From a virus, in IMG/VR virus record IMGVR_UViG_3300028025_002185, positions 1 through 36,126 of that record: a stretch of 36,126 nt of DNA. One strand, given 5' to 3'. The notes under the pieces were generated by a model that saw only the letters and a program-made list of their open reading frames with translations, ran no database searches and was not told the origin of the DNA. Shown piece after piece: positions 1-33,787 of this stretch. The position numbers and the translations under genes were made by a program. Each line of letters opens with the position of its first letter. Position 1 is the stretch's first letter.

Positions 1-13
1 GTTAATGTCTTAG

Positions 14-40
14 GTACTTTATAGTACTCCACTTAAAAGT
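14..40. promoter_or_regulatory. Operator-like palindromes upstream of terminase genes
   Basis: ACTTTATAGT (16-25), inside the inverted repeat GTACT-TTAT-AGTAC (14-27), is followed by ACTTAAAAGT (31-40). Both differ by one base from the ACTTTAAAGT palindrome repeated in the control region near 33.4-33.55 kb. TATAGT at 20-25 would serve as a -10 box, but its -35 would fall at or beyond the left edge, so a promoter cannot be confirmed. A shared regulator is an inference. Confidence 0.35.
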
Positions 41-5671: not shown

Positions 5672-6631
5672 ATGGCATTAGGTACAGATCACGTAACAAG
5701 TACGACCGCAGCAACGTTCATTCCAGAAGTATGGAGTGATGAAATTGTAGCGGCTTACAAAAAGAGCTTGGTTGCAGCTAACCTAGTTAAGAAGATGAGC
5801 TTCAAGGGCAAGAAAGGTGATGTAGTTCACATTCCAGTCCCTACACGTGGCAATGCTTCAGCTAAGGCAGCTTCTACACAAGTTACATTGATTGCAGCTA
5901 CTGAGTCTGAAATTACAGTTGCTATCAACAAGCACTACGAGTATTCACGTTTGATCGAGGATATCGTGGAAGCTCAAGCTTTGTCTAGCCTCCGTCAGTT
6001 CTACACTGATGACGCTGGTCATGCTTTGGGTAAGCAAGTTGATACTGACTTGGTAAATTTGGGTCAACAGTTCAACGTTTCAACAGCTGGTGCAGGTAAC
6101 TTCCGTTACGCTGGTGCTTTCATTGGTGGCGATGGCTCTACAGCTTTCGACTACACAGCTAACACCAACGCTGGTAACGCCTCAGCTTTGACAGCTGCTG
6201 GTATCCGTCGTACTATTCAGCGTCTCGATGACAGCGATGTTCCTATGGACAATCGTTTCTTCTTGATTCCTCCTTCAGTGCGTAACACCATCCTCGGCTT
6301 GTCTGAGTTCACCACCTTCAACAGTGTTGGTGAAGCCGGTACTGCTAACAGCATCCGTAACGGTATGATTGGTGACATCTACGGTGTTCCAGTCTATGTT
6401 ACTTCCAATGCTGGCTACGCTAACAGCGCAGCTAACGGTTCAGGTACTAACATCGGTCGTGTGTGCTTGATGGCTCACAAAGACTCTATGGTGTTGGTTG
6501 AGCAAGTCGGTGTCCGTTCACAGACTCAGTACAAACAAGAGTACCTCGGTACATTGTTCACTGCTGATACTTTGTACGGTTGCGCTGAGTTGCGTAACTA
6601 CGGTGGCGTTGCCCTCGTGGTTCCCGTCTAA
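5672..6631 (+). CDS. Major capsid (coat) protein
   Basis: This 319-residue protein forms the icosahedral shell. The opening ALGTDHVTSTTAATFIPEVWSDEIVAAYKKSLVAANLVKK and the following KGKKGDVVHIPVPTRG are typical of phage coat proteins of the HK97 fold, including P22- and N4-type relatives. The middle segment ITVAINKHYEYSRLIEDIVEAQA corresponds to the long spine helix region, and the end (TLYGCAELRNYGGVALVVPV) is typical. A strong AGGAG site lies before the ATG. Codons here shift toward C-ending forms (GGC, AAC, CTC) compared with neighbours, consistent with selection in a highly expressed gene. A terminator follows directly. Confidence 0.93.
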   Translation: MALGTDHVTSTTAATFIPEVWSDEIVAAYKKSLVAANLVKKMSFKGKKGDVVHIPVPTRGNASAKAASTQVTLIAATESEITVAINKHYEYSRLIEDIVEAQALSSLRQFYTDDAGHALGKQVDTDLVNLGQQFNVSTAGAGNFRYAGAFIGGDGSTAFDYTANTNAGNASALTAAGIRRTIQRLDDSDVPMDNRFFLIPPSVRNTILGLSEFTTFNSVGEAGTANSIRNGMIGDIYGVPVYVTSNAGYANSAANGSGTNIGRVCLMAHKDSMVLVEQVGVRSQTQYKQEYLGTLFTADTLYGCAELRNYGGVALVVPV

Positions 6632-10592: not shown

Positions 10593-12461
10593 ATGACTTC
10601 AACTATTATCACAAAGAACAGTAGCACAGCCTCTTCTGTGCCCTCATCTGGCTCACTGACTCAAGGTGAGTTAGCTGTTAACGTTACTGACAAGAAACTG
10701 TACACCAAGGACTCAGGTGGTACTGTCGTTAAGCTTGTTGGTAGTCTGGGTAATCAGGAAGCTAGTGCTGCAGCAATCACTGGAGGTTCTATCAATGGAA
10801 CTACAGTGGGGGCTTCTACAGCCTCTACAGGTGCTTTCACTACTTTGTCAGCATCCTCTACAGTATCAGGCACAGGCTTCTCAACTTACCTAGCAAGCCC
10901 TCCTGCTATTGGTGGTACAGCGGCTGCGGCTGGTTCATTTACAACTCTAAGCGCTTCTGGTGCTGTAACCCTCTCTGGAGGTACTGCTAACGGAGTAGCG
11001 TATTTAAACGGCTCTAAGGTTGTTACAAGCGGTTCTGCGCTTACTTTTAATGGAACTACTTTTATTGCTCCTGTGGTTCAAGCATCTGATGCAAATGCCA
11101 CAGTAAAAGCGGACGGAAATGGTGTTGGTGGAATACGGATGTATGCCAACAGTAGCGGAACAGCTTTACTTGAAACAACAACAGATTCTGATTTGATTTT
11201 TCGTAGAAATTCAACAGAAGGTATGCGCCTAACCAGCACAGGTTTGGGTATTGGTACAAGTAGTCCTACTGCAAAGCTATATGTTAATGCTAACAACTCT
11301 ACTGCTACTGCCATATTTCAAGACGAAAACAATGGTGCAAAAATCAGGCTACTAGCCAACTCCATTAACTTTGATTTAGGAAATAACGGGACTAACGCAT
11401 ATCTAGCTGTTAGTGGCGCAACTTCTTTGGCTTTTAATACTAATAGCACGGAGCGTTTACGCCTTGACGGATCAGGCAATCTAGGCTTGGGAGTTACTCC
11501 TAGTGTTTGGGGAAGTGTGTGGAAAGCGCAGCAATTTCAAGTTGGCGGGTTTATTGCATCGCAAACAAATGCGAATGACATTATTCATGTTGGAACAAAC
11601 GCATTTGCAAATTCAAGTAATGCTTGGACTTACATAAATACTGCCGCATCAACTCGGTATCAGCAATATCAAGGCGCACATTCTTGGTACACAGCCCCAT
11701 CAGGCACAGCAGGAAACTCCATTACCTTTACTCAGGCAATGACTCTGGATGCCTCGGGGCAACTTGGCATCGGAACTACAAGCCCAGGAAATAAACTTGA
11801 TGTGCGTGGTGGTGTGAACTTTTGGGGTGCTAGTAGCGGCATTGTCCAATTTGATGGAACTTCAATCAAGCAAGTTGACAATACAGTTTTAACTGTCGGG
11901 ACTTTTTACAATCAGGCTTTCACGCTTATAACCAACAACACAGAGAGAGCCCGTATAGACACAAGCGGTCGGTTTGCTATCAATGTTGCAGGAAATTCTT
12001 ATTCACAAGATGCAGGCTTAACAGTTAACGGAACGGGTTTCACAAGAGCAATTTATACCAATATAAATGGCACTTCTTCTGCTACTCATTGTTCTTTTGC
12101 AAATGGAAATGGTGTTGTTGGTTCAATTACAACAAGCGGCACTACCACAACCTATGCAACATCATCCGACTATCGCCTAAAGAACACCGTTGCTCCAATG
12201 ACAGGAGCATTGGCTAAAGTTGCTTTGCTCAAGCCAGTCACTTACAAGTGGAACGCTGACGGCTCTAATGGTGAAGGCTTCATTGCTCACGAATTGGCTG
12301 AAGTTTGTCCTGATGCCGTAGTAGGCGAGAAAGATGCTGTTGACGCTGAAGGCAATCCTAAGTACCAAGGCATTGACACCTCATTCTTGGTAGCTACATT
12401 GACTGCCGCTATCCAAGAACTCAAAGCAGAATTTGATGCCTACAAAGCATCTCACCCTTAA
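10593..12461 (+). CDS. Tail fibre with C-terminal S74 chaperone domain
   Basis: This 622-residue protein is probably the host-recognition fibre or spike. The N-terminus (SLTQGELAVNVTDKKLYTKDSGG, about residues 22-45) is a common virion-attachment module. The middle is beta-rich with repeated LGIGT(S/T)SP.(A/G)KL.V units (about residues 226 and 388) and ER(L/A)R.D.SG. Residues 524-622 are a peptidase S74 intramolecular chaperone of the endosialidase type: S525-DYRLK530 supplies the Ser/Lys pair that in this family releases the domain by self-cleavage after trimer folding. Base and codon use in about 11,040-12,460 (many GCA, AAT, TTT, GGA) differ from the flanking genes, suggesting a swapped receptor-binding segment. 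Confidence 0.9.
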   Translation: MTSTIITKNSSTASSVPSSGSLTQGELAVNVTDKKLYTKDSGGTVVKLVGSLGNQEASAAAITGGSINGTTVGASTASTGAFTTLSASSTVSGTGFSTYLASPPAIGGTAAAAGSFTTLSASGAVTLSGGTANGVAYLNGSKVVTSGSALTFNGTTFIAPVVQASDANATVKADGNGVGGIRMYANSSGTALLETTTDSDLIFRRNSTEGMRLTSTGLGIGTSSPTAKLYVNANNSTATAIFQDENNGAKIRLLANSINFDLGNNGTNAYLAVSGATSLAFNTNSTERLRLDGSGNLGLGVTPSVWGSVWKAQQFQVGGFIASQTNANDIIHVGTNAFANSSNAWTYINTAASTRYQQYQGAHSWYTAPSGTAGNSITFTQAMTLDASGQLGIGTTSPGNKLDVRGGVNFWGASSGIVQFDGTSIKQVDNTVLTVGTFYNQAFTLITNNTERARIDTSGRFAINVAGNSYSQDAGLTVNGTGFTRAIYTNINGTSSATHCSFANGNGVVGSITTSGTTTTYATSSDYRLKNTVAPMTGALAKVALLKPVTYKWNADGSNGEGFIAHELAEVCPDAVVGEKDAVDAEGNPKYQGIDTSFLVATLTAAIQELKAEFDAYKASHP

Positions 12462-15656: not shown

Positions 15657-16664
15657 ATGGCTGATTGGACAGATTTAATTGGCCCTTTGCTGGGCACTGC
15701 AGGTAGCGTATATGCTGCTAACACAGCTGCTAATGCTACCACTAACGCAGCTAATCAAGCTGCACAAGCTGCACAGTTCAGACCTGTAGGAATCACTACA
15801 AGGTTTGGTAAGTCAGGCTTCCAGTATGATCCTGCTACAGGACAACTCACAGGTGCTGGCTATCAAGTAGCTCCTGATGTTGCAGCTATGCGTGAAGGTT
15901 TGATGGGCTTGGCAGGTACTGGCTTAAGTCAAGCTCAACAGGCTCAAGCTCAACAGGCAGGTATTACTCAAGCTGGTCAAGGCCTATTCAACCTAGGTCA
16001 GCAGTATGTAGCTCAGACACCTCAGGGTGCAGCTCAGCAGTTCATGTCGCAGCAGCAGCAACTACTGGCTCCCGGTCGTGAACAGCAACTGGCTCAACTG
16101 ACTAACCAACAACAGCAGCAAGGTCGTTTAGGTCTAGCTACTGGCGGCACTGCACAGGGTTATACAGCTGGCGCTCAAGGCTTACAAGCTGCTAATCCTC
16201 AGATGGCTGCTTACTACAATGCATTGGCTCAGCAGGATGCGCAGTTGGCAGGACAGGCTCAACAGGCTGGACAACAGCAGGTACAGTTCGGTCAAGGATT
16301 GATGTCTAGTGGTTTAGGTCTGCAGAATACAGGCTATGGTTTACAAGGTGCAGCTTTGGCTCCTTATACTAACTATATCGCAGGTGCTACAGGCTTAGAG
16401 AATCAAGGCTTGAATGCTTTGACTCAAGGACTTGGTTTAGGTTCATCAATCACAGCAGCATCCACAGCTGCGGCTAACATTCAGAATGCTGCAGCTCAGC
16501 AAGTAGCCCAGCAACAATTACAAAGAAACAATGCTATTGTAGGTGGTTTAACAGATCCTATTAGTCAATTGATTGGTGGCCTTACAGGATCTACAGCGGC
16601 TAGATCAGCCAATGCTAATACAGCTTTTAACCCTTACTTTCAGTCTATTGGATATCGTCCTTAA
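15657..16664 (+). CDS. Internal virion protein (Gln/Ala-rich, gp14-like position)
   Basis: This 335-residue protein begins MADWTDLIGPLLGTAGSVYAANTAANA, a hydrophobic N-terminal stretch that could insert into a membrane. Long Gln/Ala/Gly-rich helical tracts follow (QQQQLLAPGREQQLAQLTNQQQQQG). In T7-like phages three internal proteins follow the nozzle gene and are ejected to make a channel across the cell envelope; this is the first of such a trio here. I place the start at 15657 because an in-frame ATG at 15636 lies inside the previous gene; GGAGG lies 11 bases upstream. Homology to gp14 is positional only. Confidence 0.65.
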   Translation: MADWTDLIGPLLGTAGSVYAANTAANATTNAANQAAQAAQFRPVGITTRFGKSGFQYDPATGQLTGAGYQVAPDVAAMREGLMGLAGTGLSQAQQAQAQQAGITQAGQGLFNLGQQYVAQTPQGAAQQFMSQQQQLLAPGREQQLAQLTNQQQQQGRLGLATGGTAQGYTAGAQGLQAANPQMAAYYNALAQQDAQLAGQAQQAGQQQVQFGQGLMSSGLGLQNTGYGLQGAALAPYTNYIAGATGLENQGLNALTQGLGLGSSITAASTAAANIQNAAAQQVAQQQLQRNNAIVGGLTDPISQLIGGLTGSTAARSANANTAFNPYFQSIGYRP

Positions 16665-30432: not shown

Positions 30433-30809
30433 GTGTTCTTCTCCTTGAGTTTGGCTTCAATAACTGTAAAAACCTCGTCATCTGTTTTATGGTCTAGCCA
30501 TGAGCTAAACAAATGTTTTTCCTTATCCGTCAGCCCCACCCATGTGCGCTGTGGTGGGGTGGTGTAGAAAGGTTGTCCAACATAAAAAATATTTTTATCC
30601 GCAAAATGTAAAGTTCCATCCTCTCGCATCCACGCAACAGGTTCATCCTTCGCTTCTCCGTCACTTCGTGACAATAGTGCGGCTTTAATGGCGGTGATGG
30701 CTTCATTGTTCTTTTCCCAAACTTCGGTTGGCGCATCGGTTTCAAGCCATGCCCTATTTTCTTTCAACGCCTCCAATGCTAATTTAAGAGCTTCATCTTT
30801 ATCATTCAT
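30429..30809 (-). CDS. Hypothetical protein of Burkholderiales phage type
   Basis: This 126-residue protein starts with a helix (EALKLALEALKENRAWLE...EAITAIKAALLSR), followed by EPVAWMREDGTL and FYTTPPQRTWVGLTDKEKHLFSSW. The EPVAWM...TTPPQR.WVGLT layout recurs in phages and prophages of Burkholderiales, with unknown function. Its DNA (GTGGTGGGGT, GTGCGCTG) is richer in GC than the rest of the operon, suggesting recent acquisition. A similar REWVGLT segment occurs in the protein at 34124-34324. Confidence 0.75.
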   Translation of the reverse strand: MNDKDEALKLALEALKENRAWLETDAPTEVWEKNNEAITAIKAALLSRSDGEAKDEPVAWMREDGTLHFADKNIFYVGQPFYTTPPQRTWVGLTDKEKHLFSSWLDHKTDDEVFTVIEAKLKEKNT

Positions 30810-31099
30810 GATATTTGTTTCCCTCTATAGTTCAACTCAGTACATTGATACACAGGAGCTTCCTTCCAGTTAGGTCGGTAGGTATACTTAATAGCTACTC
30901 CAGCAGATCCTGATACAGTCTCTAAAGTTTGATTCTTCTTAGCTCTATAAGCTCTCTTATGTGCAGCTTTGATGTCTCTATTCCTCTGAGCCCATTCACG
31001 CTCCTTGATGCGTCTACGATTAGCTCTCTCTTCAATGACTTCTGGAGAAACTCCAATGTCCATCATCCTTTGCATCCACTTAGGTATAGTACCTGTCAT
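30806..31099 (-). CDS. Hypothetical basic protein
   Basis: This 97-residue protein, MTGTIPKWMQRMMDIGVSPEVIEERANRRRIKEREWAQRNRDIKAAHKRAYRAKKN, is a long Arg/Lys-rich helix likely to bind nucleic acid. A short beta part (VAIKYTYRPNWKEAPVY) follows. It is joined to both neighbours by 4-base overlaps. No family recognised. Confidence 0.7.
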   Translation of the reverse strand: MTGTIPKWMQRMMDIGVSPEVIEERANRRRIKEREWAQRNRDIKAAHKRAYRAKKNQTLETVSGSAGVAIKYTYRPNWKEAPVYQCTELNYRGKQIS

Positions 31100-31263: not shown

Positions 31264-32889
31264 CTAAAGCGTCTCATCTTGTATCTCCATCATACGTCCA
31301 GTCTCCATGTCGTACTTCAAAGTACACGCTGGGCCTGTGTAGCCATTGTAACGATTCTTAGCCACTGCAATCTTAGTCATGTGTCTCTCATTCTCATCCT
31401 CAGCCATGCTATTACGTTCCAATGTAATCACAGCATCTGACAGCTGAGCAATTGAGCCTGAACCTCTGAGCTGAGACAAAGATACTGATTGTCCATCCTC
31501 GTGTCCTGCGTTACCTTGAGGCCTACGAAGGTGACTTACACAGATCAGAGTGATCTCCAACTCTTGAACCAGTGTACGAAGCTTCGTCATCATGTTATCA
31601 ATTGCCTTACGCTCATCTCCAAGATCCTGACCACTGACAACAATGCTAATGTGGTCAAGAAAGATGACCCTACAATCGCAAGCTTTAGCCATATACCTGA
31701 TTCTGTTGGCAATGTTGTCAACGTCACTGCTACCGAAGTGATCAAAGAGATAAATACGATTACTTCCCAATGTTGCATCAAAAGCATCTTTAAGTTCCTT
31801 CTCAGTTGTTGGTGTATCAGGTAAATGCAACAGCTTATTAGCGTGCAAAGACATGATACTTCTAGCTGTCTTACGAGTTGACTCTTCGAGGAATAACCCT
31901 CCAATGTTCCACTTCGTAGTGTTCAGAATGTTAAACAATATCTCACGTAAGAATTGGCTCTTACCGAGGCCTGAACCAGCTGTGACTGTAACTAACTCCG
32001 AAGGTCTCATACCGTAGAGAAGCTTATTCAAGCCCTTCCAAGGGTACATAGCCTCAGCCTTAGCCTCAGGTTTAATCACTTCCTCCCACAGTGATGCAGC
32101 ATTGATGATCCCATCAGGAATGTACACCTCAGCTCTCCACCACTCATTGACAAACTCTTTAGTAGCCCCAGCAATGAGGTAATCACAAGCATCTTTGTAG
32201 CCACTCAAATGCTTCACAATCTTAGCCTTCTGTCCGAACAGTTCAGCTACCTCTTTAGAAGCCTTCTTACCCGGCTCATCAGCATCGAAGCAGATAACAA
32301 TGTTCTCAAAGCTGTTTAACCATTCATACTGAGCTTTGCAGTCCTTTAGGGCTGCTTGCGCACCATTCCGTATAGAGACACTAGGCCACTGGCTTCCGGT
32401 GAGTTGGTAGCCTGCGAGTGCATCGAGCTCCCCTTCGTAGATTGTGACGTACTTCCCTCCTGCGTGGAAGAGACCCTGCCCAAACAACCGTGCATTGTGA
32501 AAGGTTCCGTTAATTGAAAAAGACTTTTCAGCAACTCTTCGTGTTTTGTAGGCGACAACGGTTCCACTGTCGTCAGTGTAAGGGTAAAAGTGATTTTGTG
32601 CATCTTGAGTAACTCCGTACTTCTCACAAGTTTGTAAGTTAATACCTCTATCAGGTATCGATTTAATAGTCCCTTTAGGTTCTATCATTTTAGTCTTTCG
32701 TGGTTGTACTGCATCTTGCTTAACTGTGAAGTCATCATATTCATTATCATGGTGAGTTTCATGGCAGTTAAAACAATAGGTATGATTATCATCGTATAAA
32801 GCACCAGCATCTGAGCTACCACAGTACTCACAAGGTATGTGCTTTACAAACTTTGACTCCTGTTTCTCTTTGCGTACGATGCTAAGCAT
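31264..32889 (-). CDS. Primase-helicase (T7 gp4-like)
   Basis: This 541-residue bifunctional protein makes RNA primers and unwinds DNA at the fork. A zinc finger lies at CEYC...CFNC (Cys20, 23, 39, 42). A TOPRIM primase follows, with YEGELDA (Glu152, Glu154, Asp156) and CFDADEPGKK (Asp202, Asp204). The RecA-type helicase has Walker A GSGLGKS (305-311), catalytic EES near 335, Walker B VIFLDH (Asp412), ICVSHLRRP and the arginine-finger region AVAKNRYNG. Length is close to T7 gp4 (566). GGGAGG lies 9 bases before the ATG. It overlaps the previous gene by 8 bases. Confidence 0.95.
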   Translation of the reverse strand: MLSIVRKEKQESKFVKHIPCEYCGSSDAGALYDDNHTYCFNCHETHHDNEYDDFTVKQDAVQPRKTKMIEPKGTIKSIPDRGINLQTCEKYGVTQDAQNHFYPYTDDSGTVVAYKTRRVAEKSFSINGTFHNARLFGQGLFHAGGKYVTIYEGELDALAGYQLTGSQWPSVSIRNGAQAALKDCKAQYEWLNSFENIVICFDADEPGKKASKEVAELFGQKAKIVKHLSGYKDACDYLIAGATKEFVNEWWRAEVYIPDGIINAASLWEEVIKPEAKAEAMYPWKGLNKLLYGMRPSELVTVTAGSGLGKSQFLREILFNILNTTKWNIGGLFLEESTRKTARSIMSLHANKLLHLPDTPTTEKELKDAFDATLGSNRIYLFDHFGSSDVDNIANRIRYMAKACDCRVIFLDHISIVVSGQDLGDERKAIDNMMTKLRTLVQELEITLICVSHLRRPQGNAGHEDGQSVSLSQLRGSGSIAQLSDAVITLERNSMAEDENERHMTKIAVAKNRYNGYTGPACTLKYDMETGRMMEIQDETL

Positions 32890-33088: not shown

Positions 33089-33151
33089 TTATTTGTTACT
33101 CAATACAAGTTTAATTAAAGTTACTATGGAGACAAACAAAGCCATTATCAT
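33089..33151 (-). CDS. Tiny membrane peptide (20 aa)
   Basis: Read directly from the sequence: MIMALFVSIVTLIKLVLSNK, essentially one membrane segment. Its ATG overlaps the previous stop (ATGA), and the next gene's ATG follows its TAA without a gap. There is no strong ribosome site of its own, so it would rely on re-initiation. It resembles the 21-residue peptide at 30367 only in size and hydrophobicity. Confidence 0.5.
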   Translation of the reverse strand: MIMALFVSIVTLIKLVLSNK

Positions 33152-33369
33152 GGATGTTCATCCACTGGCAGTTGTTCATCGTTAATAGGTAAGACATAAC
33201 CTTCACCTAAGCGTTTAAGCACAGTTTCAGCTACATCAGCCATAACCTTATCACGACCATTGTTCATGATTAAGTCAGCCATACTATCAATGACAGACCA
33301 ATACCAACATTCATACTTAACGACATCAAGTTCATGACCATCATCATCAATCATCAGTTCAATAGACAT
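33148..33369 (-). CDS. Hypothetical acidic protein, first gene after the leftward promoter
   Basis: This 73-residue protein, MSIELMIDDDGHELDVVKYECWYWSVIDSMADLIMNNGRDKVMADVAETVLKRLGEGY, is acidic. It is the first gene transcribed from the promoter at 33528-33556, with CTAGGAGGATAATTT giving a strong ribosome site. No family recognised. Confidence 0.7.
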   Translation of the reverse strand: MSIELMIDDDGHELDVVKYECWYWSVIDSMADLIMNNGRDKVMADVAETVLKRLGEGYVLPINDEQLPVDEHP

Positions 33370-33414
33370 AAATTATCCTCCTAGGGTTATTGTCTATACC
33401 ACATTATGAAACTC

Positions 33415-33556
33415 TGGCACTTTAAAGTTACTTTATAAGTAATTATATAAAGGTACTTTAATAGTGTATTTAACTACTATGTAACTTCTATGAAACATCA
33501 TAGGTACTCAGTAGTTACTTTAAAGTAAGGGTAGCATACTTTAAAGATCTTGTCAA
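33415..33556. promoter_or_regulatory. Cluster of ACTTTAAAGT palindromes (operator or origin candidate)
   Basis: Perfect ACTTTAAAGT lies at 33419-33428 and, within the 14-bp palindrome TTACTTTAAAGTAA, at 33515-33528. Variants are TTACTT-TAT-AAGTAA (33428-33442), ACTTTAATAGT (33455-33465) and ACTTTAAAGA (33538-33547). The last lies in the promoter spacer, and its centre is 21 bp, two helical turns, from the site covering the -10 edge and start point. A leader hairpin (AACTACT 33472-33478 with AGTAGTT 33510-33516; CTATGA 33488-33493 with TCATAG 33498-33503) lies between. The region is very AT-rich. Confidence 0.65.
33528..33556 (-). promoter_or_regulatory. Promoter of the leftward replication operon
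   Basis: Reading leftward, TTGACA (33556-33551) is a perfect -35, with a 17-base spacer and TACCCT (33533-33528) as a weak -10 helped by an upstream TGC (extended -10). It shares TTGACA-N12-TATGCTAC with the promoter at 4169. It sits just past the stop of the 33560 gene; transcription should begin near 33521. The weak -10 plus overlapping palindromes suggest regulation. Confidence 0.7.
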
Positions 33557-33559
33557 GTG

Positions 33560-33787
33560 TTATTTAAAGTCCACTTCCTCCATAGGGTTAATATCATCAT
33601 TATCCTCAGCACTGTCGTCAATGTCATCCTCTGAGATCAGGTCTCTCCTATCCTTTGTAGGTAGGTTAGCGTCCATCTGTACAGTTTTAAAGCATTGCTG
33701 ACATAGGTCTATAAACATACCTGTCACAGCGTGCTTACGTGTAGCTTCGAAGTCAGTTAATAATCTATCACAGCATAGGCATTTCAT
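33560..33787 (-). CDS. Small zinc-binding protein with acidic tail
   Basis: This 75-residue protein has CLCC (residues 3-6) and CQQC (29-32), a four-Cys zinc site. The opening MKCLCCDRLLTDFEATRKHAVTGMFIDLC recalls small phage zinc proteins. The last 28 residues are highly acidic (SEDDIDDSAEDNDDINPMEE), suggesting DNA mimicry or protein binding. The start overlaps the previous stop. Function unknown. Confidence 0.75.
   Translation of the reverse strand: MKCLCCDRLLTDFEATRKHAVTGMFIDLCQQCFKTVQMDANLPTKDRRDLISEDDIDDSAEDNDDINPMEEVDFK

Follow-up and report, generated by a model that had tools for sequence, protein, structure and literature searches.

The DNA analysed here (the window) comes from an uncultured phage and makes up an IMG/VR virus record that is 36,126 bases long and classed as linear. 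Terminase, portal, capsid, tail and lysis genes occupy the plus strand of its left arm, and the minus strand of the right arm carries genes for a T7-type primase/helicase, DNA polymerase, endonuclease, exonuclease and ribonucleotide reductase. The primase/helicase of this replication operon lies at 31264-32889 (minus strand; phrog_239, E 5e-188). We found close relatives among uncultured contigs only, the nearest named phages reaching at most ~50% identity in the primase, and a host search via cellular genome contigs found no relative. We kept 80 of 255 related loci from IMG/VR; the leaders and genomes compared below are related sequences from one phage group, and counts among them are not independent. 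Complete relatives are circular, as judged from a 127-bp end overlap.

The replication operon is preceded by a 190-bp gap (33370-33559). On its upstream side, a gene for a Cys4 protein with an acidic tail (33560-33787, minus strand; relatives in 65/67 loci) borders the gap, its end lying 4 bp from the -35 hexamer described below. The first gene past the leader (33148-33369, minus strand; relatives in 69/73 loci) encodes an acidic protein of 73 amino acids (pI 4.1) and has the Shine-Dalgarno sequence AGGAGGA at 33376-33382 on the same strand. In the Methylophilales phage MEP402, a hypothetical-protein gene lies beside the primase gene, with a DNA match that overlaps the Cys4 gene of the window.

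Symmetric sites in the gap

On the minus strand, the gap contains a -35 hexamer TTGACA (33551-33556), a 17-bp spacer and an extended -10 element TGC-TACCCT (33528-33536, with TG at 33536-33535 and the hexamer at 33533-33528). A generic promoter scan left this combination unlisted because TACCCT is a poor hexamer; judged from the relatives, it is nonetheless a conserved promoter. Centred on the predicted start point is dyad 1, TTACTTTAAAGTAA (33515-33528), with the core CTTTAAAG at 33518-33525. As originally predicted, it is a perfect 14-bp palindrome at the promoter, and no other position in the window comes within two mismatches of it.

Copies of the 10-bp palindrome ACTTTAAAGT are found at 33517-33526 and at 33419-33428, the latter forming the last dyad, 98 bp downstream of dyad 1. 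The spacer dyad ACTTTAAAGA (33538-33547) sits between the -35 and -10 elements, its centre at 33542.5 being 21 bp from that of dyad 1 at 33521.5. Two variant sites are of an 11-bp type with one extra base, TTACTTTATAAGTAA at 33428-33442, where most relatives have TACTTATAAAG, and TACTTTAATAGT at 33454-33465. In all, the cluster has five ACTTTAAAGT-like sites, of which three differ from the palindrome at no more than one position.

This clustering exceeds chance. The window holds 8 sites with at most one mismatch to ACTTTAAAGT, compared to 2.5 +/- 1.5 in shuffled sequences, none of 100 shuffles reaching 8, and 3 of these 8 lie inside the gap. Across 10 related, non-independent genomes, ACTTTAAAGT was the top 10-bp palindrome in non-coding DNA with 16 copies, vs. 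3 copies in nine times more coding sequence, a 41-fold enrichment. Other AT-rich palindromes were enriched in non-coding DNA too, so part of the excess is due to composition. A literature search for ACTTTAAAGT gave no relevant paper among those listed. The five-site cluster of the original prediction is therefore real: every site is where it was placed, the genome-wide count with one mismatch is in excess over shuffles, density is lower in coding than in non-coding DNA, and the motif is conserved in relatives.

The remainder of the leader has a structure of its own. An imperfect inverted repeat, AGTAACT-ACTG-AGTACCT (33502-33519, minus strand), is a perfect AGRTACT-N4-AGTAYCT in many relatives and is deleted in five (L007, L008, L014-L016). 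Two 11-bp direct repeats CATAGWAGTTA follow (33471-33492, minus strand); many relatives have a single copy, with dyad distances 11 bp shorter. A block of ~23-25 bp, AGTAGTTAAATACACTATTAAAG (33456-33478, minus strand), is common to the terminase leader of complete relatives. The least stable 80-bp stretch of the window also falls here, at 33423-33502 (80% A+T, z -4.0).

Position of the sites in related leaders

We compared the gap in 58 related loci showing the promoter pattern, which reduced to 47 distinct leaders. All 47 have TTGACA, exactly 17 bp, TG[CT]TA[CA]CCT and then a CTWTAWAG-type dyad. The constancy of the promoter is partly a matter of selection, these leaders having been picked by that very pattern, but the dyad lies outside it. 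In every leader, the centre of dyad 1 was found 6-8 nt past the -10 element (sd 0.6 nt). The core was exactly CTTTAAAG in 42 leaders and exactly CTATATAG in 3, with the one-mismatch form CTTTAGAG in the remaining two (L027 and L032). In place of CTTTAAAG, L009, L012 and L022 have another perfect dyad, of 12 bp (ACCTATATAGGT, ATCTATATAGAT), at the start, leaving the two-fold symmetry intact. The constant part of the dyad is 8 bp; the outer bases of the 14-bp palindrome vary. A further dyad occurs 80-100 bp downstream of dyad 1, again in 47/47 leaders, and the distance from the last dyad to the ATG ranges from 32 to 120 nt. Overall, CTTTAAAG is present 2.06 times per leader, vs. 0.013 in dinucleotide shuffles.

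Five loci outside the 47 (L069, L070, L074, L076 and L077) have a different -10 region, TATGG-TAAAAT or TAATAT, at the same spacing, and carry ACTTTAAAGG at the start. The primase genes of L069 and L077 are only 40% identical to that of the window at 4-fold degenerate sites. The presence of ACTTTAAAGG at +1 despite this divergence argues for selection over recent common descent.

The original prediction had also pointed to the 21-bp pair formed by dyad 1 and the spacer dyad as a geometry suited to two bound dimers. The pair is present in the window, but the spacer dyad was found in only 4 of the 47 leaders, so the pair is best seen as a local feature of the window's lineage and is not supported as the working arrangement. 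The broader claim, that regulator sites are embedded in the promoter of the replication operon, fares much better: dyad 1 is kept at the same place in all 47 leaders, and its position and conservation support such a role.

We propose that the gap is a host-sigma70-type promoter and leader of the replication operon, whose dyads serve a homodimeric DNA-binding protein as operators, and give this reading a probability of roughly 0.6. Symmetric sites above chance and a fixed position relative to the promoter, as expected of an operator cluster, are both found here. The main argument for an action on transcription initiation is that the distance from the -10 element to dyad 1 is nearly fixed, whereas other distances are free. 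That symmetry is kept while the sequence changes argues for a homodimer, and the ACTTTAAAGT palindromes are very probably binding sites for a regulator of the replication promoter. Since dyad 1 covers the start, the sites probably act in repression rather than activation. Several observations count against the operator reading: Pfam and PHROGs gave no candidate regulator among the early proteins, the spacer dyad is not conserved and the dyad distances are not strictly phased.

In mechanistic terms, host RNA polymerase would read the replication operon on the minus strand from TTGACA-17-TGCTACCCT, the host enzyme being assumed because no phage RNA polymerase gene was found: the single-subunit enzyme (PF00940) was absent from the window and 11 relatives in a search that recovered the T7 positive control, and the large unassigned proteins had no Pfam match. 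The CTTTAAAG-type dyads would serve as operators, a dimer on dyad 1 competing with or locking the polymerase at the start point. The conserved dyad 80-100 bp downstream may reinforce this effect as a roadblock, or by cooperation across the AT-rich stretch. Rigid looping between the dyads was considered and rejected, as distances of 80-100 bp are not uniformly phased, although steps of 11 bp (87 to 98) give it a little leeway. Operon timing and the start of replication in such phages, to our knowledge a little-studied matter, would become approachable through the gap. It would provide an exact and testable point of control over the replication genes in an uncultured group with a T7-type replisome and no RNA polymerase of its own, on a short DNA fragment usable in a reporter or as bait for the regulator.

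The sister element and alternative readings

Complete relatives contain exactly two close copies of the block (at most 4 mismatches), facing outward, one in the replication leader and one in the leader of the terminase genes. In these relatives, the terminase leader shares the block, an AT-rich core and the same dyads with the replication leader. Local alignment of the two in the same direction scored 58-77, vs. null maxima of 33-41. The element also recurs in part in inverted orientation: in G001, a reverse copy that extends from the dyad to the block scored 67 (null maximum 37), and in G003 and G005 the reverse score was barely above the null maximum. The window begins inside the sister element and lacks the remainder of this ~1-kb non-coding region; positions 1-40 (plus strand) hold its 3' end, with GTTAATGTCTTAGG, ACTTTATAGT (16-25) and ACTTAAAAGT (31-40). 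The inverted similarity between this element and the replication leader is greatest in G001. The recurrence of the sites suggests one regulator for the replication and terminase operons, which would place both outward-facing operons under one switch.

The terminase leader of relatives has a perfect TTGACA-17-TATAAT promoter (e.g. L026 reverse strand near 16507; G003 37765-37870, in coordinates rotated to the terminase). Two hairpins follow: the first has a near-invariant loop, CCTGACCCCA, which reads CCTAGCCCCA in G011, and the other, CCYT-NNN-ARGGGGAAC, shows paired changes. These hairpins look like a conserved RNA leader element, for which Rfam gave no match.

A repressor alone leaves the shared block and the AT-rich core unexplained, and the original prediction had raised a replication origin as the alternative. 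In its T7-like form, the transcript made by host RNA polymerase from the promoter would open the AT-rich leader, and T7-type helicase and polymerase would take over its 3' end. The terminase leader would act as a second origin. We regard this as unlikely, despite several points in its favour. The replication and terminase elements have sequence in common and rank as the two least stable stretches of 80 bp in each of four complete circular genomes, the partial inverted recurrence suggests a role as DNA rather than RNA, and the phage combines a T7-type replication module with the lack of a phage RNA polymerase. Furthermore, a transcript made by E. coli RNA polymerase can serve T7 helicase and polymerase as a restart point in vitro (PMC5997990). 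On the other hand, AT-rich DNA is common in promoters and leaders anyway, there is no switch in GC skew at 33.5 kb, and an origin would not account for the fixed position of the dyad on the start point. The gap is easily melted, as an origin should be, but it has neither regularly spaced direct repeats nor DnaA boxes of the iteron or DnaA type, its dyad spacing (80-100 bp) is variable, and the missing PF00940 polymerase speaks against an origin of the classical T7 type. The shared block was also considered as a T7- or SP6-like promoter, TTAAATACACTATTAAAG being faintly like ...ACACTATAGAAG, and rejected as such for want of the same polymerase gene.

Better origin candidates exist elsewhere in the relatives. 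In complete relatives, the region separating the early genes from the terminase promoter holds a cluster of 3-6 DnaA boxes (TTATNCACA) within ~200 bp (G001 36832-36937, G002 36339-36465 and G003 37097-37224, all rotated to the terminase), and such clusters occur in ~30 related contigs. The region is absent from the window fragment, whose sole TTATNCACA is at 11999. In the closest relative of the window (L001) and in G005, three GGYAAATWTTGCC-type palindromes 21 bp apart replace the DnaA-box cluster at the equivalent place (repeats of GGCAAATATTGCC type; L001 reverse complement ~6110-6165; G005 with L098/L030). These repeats of the window's lineage are possibly an exchangeable origin or early operator. 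The DnaA-box/21-bp-repeat region is a better origin candidate than the gap, for which the unstable DNA and the sister element still speak. A composite scheme, in which the gap and the terminase sister are twin origins of a T7-type replisome primed by host RNA polymerase transcripts in the genome's two least stable stretches, with dyads that let one protein switch between transcription and replication, seems to us quite unlikely.

Two further readings dispense with DNA operators or with a regulator altogether. The leader might act as RNA, for example in antitermination or mRNA stability, consistent with the presence of the shared block in both transcribed leaders along the direction of transcription and with the terminase-leader hairpins, whose conserved loop is accompanied by some paired changes (AGAAG/CTTCT to AGTAG/CTACT). 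We consider this very improbable for the replication leader: RNAalifold gave no consensus fold among 44 replication leaders, Rfam matched no known RNA family there, several relatives have lost the AGRTACT/AGTAYCT hairpin or have it in broken form, and half of dyad 1 is untranscribed because it straddles the start point. Initial sequences influence promoter escape, and dyad 1 is always at +1; the conserved sequence could thus be a mere preferred initial transcribed sequence or discriminator, the other copies being AT-rich background. This is, if anything, even less probable, given that a second copy lies away from the start in every leader, that the motif is strongly enriched over coding DNA across the genomes, and that two-fold symmetry survives sequence change.

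Candidate regulators and comparison with known systems

The absence of a visible regulator with a known fold, noted in the original prediction, holds within Pfam and PHROGs, neither of which matched the early proteins to a recognised DNA-binding family; two structure predictions revealed none either. Most of the conserved early proteins are acidic. The AlphaFold prediction for the Cys4 protein (pLDDT 59.5) was not usable. The protein encoded at 30806-31099 is strongly basic (pI 10.2), mostly helical and present in 63/80 relatives, with the conserved C-terminal motif YRPNWKEAPVYxCPELTYRGK. Its predicted structure has confident helices (block means >90 over residues 11-50), and a bZIP match was below threshold. 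As a binder of the dyads it is unconvincing: the predicted structure found no fold match in the PDB, and G011, which keeps the dyad, has no relative of the protein.

The arrangement that we favour, operators at a sigma70-type promoter, recalls the lambda oR/oL, P22 and 434 operators, where several two-fold symmetric sites likewise lie within and around the promoter of a replication operon and similar sites occur at a second operon. Unlike in those phages, no cI/Cro-like protein was found here, site spacing is loose and the sites reach into a long AT-rich leader. We know of no CTWTAWAG core in lambda, P22 or 434. The T7 primary origin (phi1.1A/phi1.1B and an AT-rich region) is similar in its T7-type primase/helicase and polymerase and in having a promoter followed by an AT-rich non-coding stretch; it differs in that the phage studied here lacks both a single-subunit RNA polymerase and a T7-type promoter, and instead shows symmetric dyads and two elements per genome.

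A-4L lacks the ACTTTAAAGT cluster, as do the parts of HTVC115P, HTVC103P and MEP402 that were examined, with single one-mismatch sites at most; the shared block is missing from A-4L as well. In genome organization, by contrast, the phage resembles the T7-supergroup podoviruses SIO1 and VpV262 and the Saffermanviridae, such as A-4L, which likewise have no phage RNA polymerase and arrange their genes, those for T7-type replication included, in two arms (PMC6775973). Its capsid protein has relatives in A-4L and Pf-WMP3.
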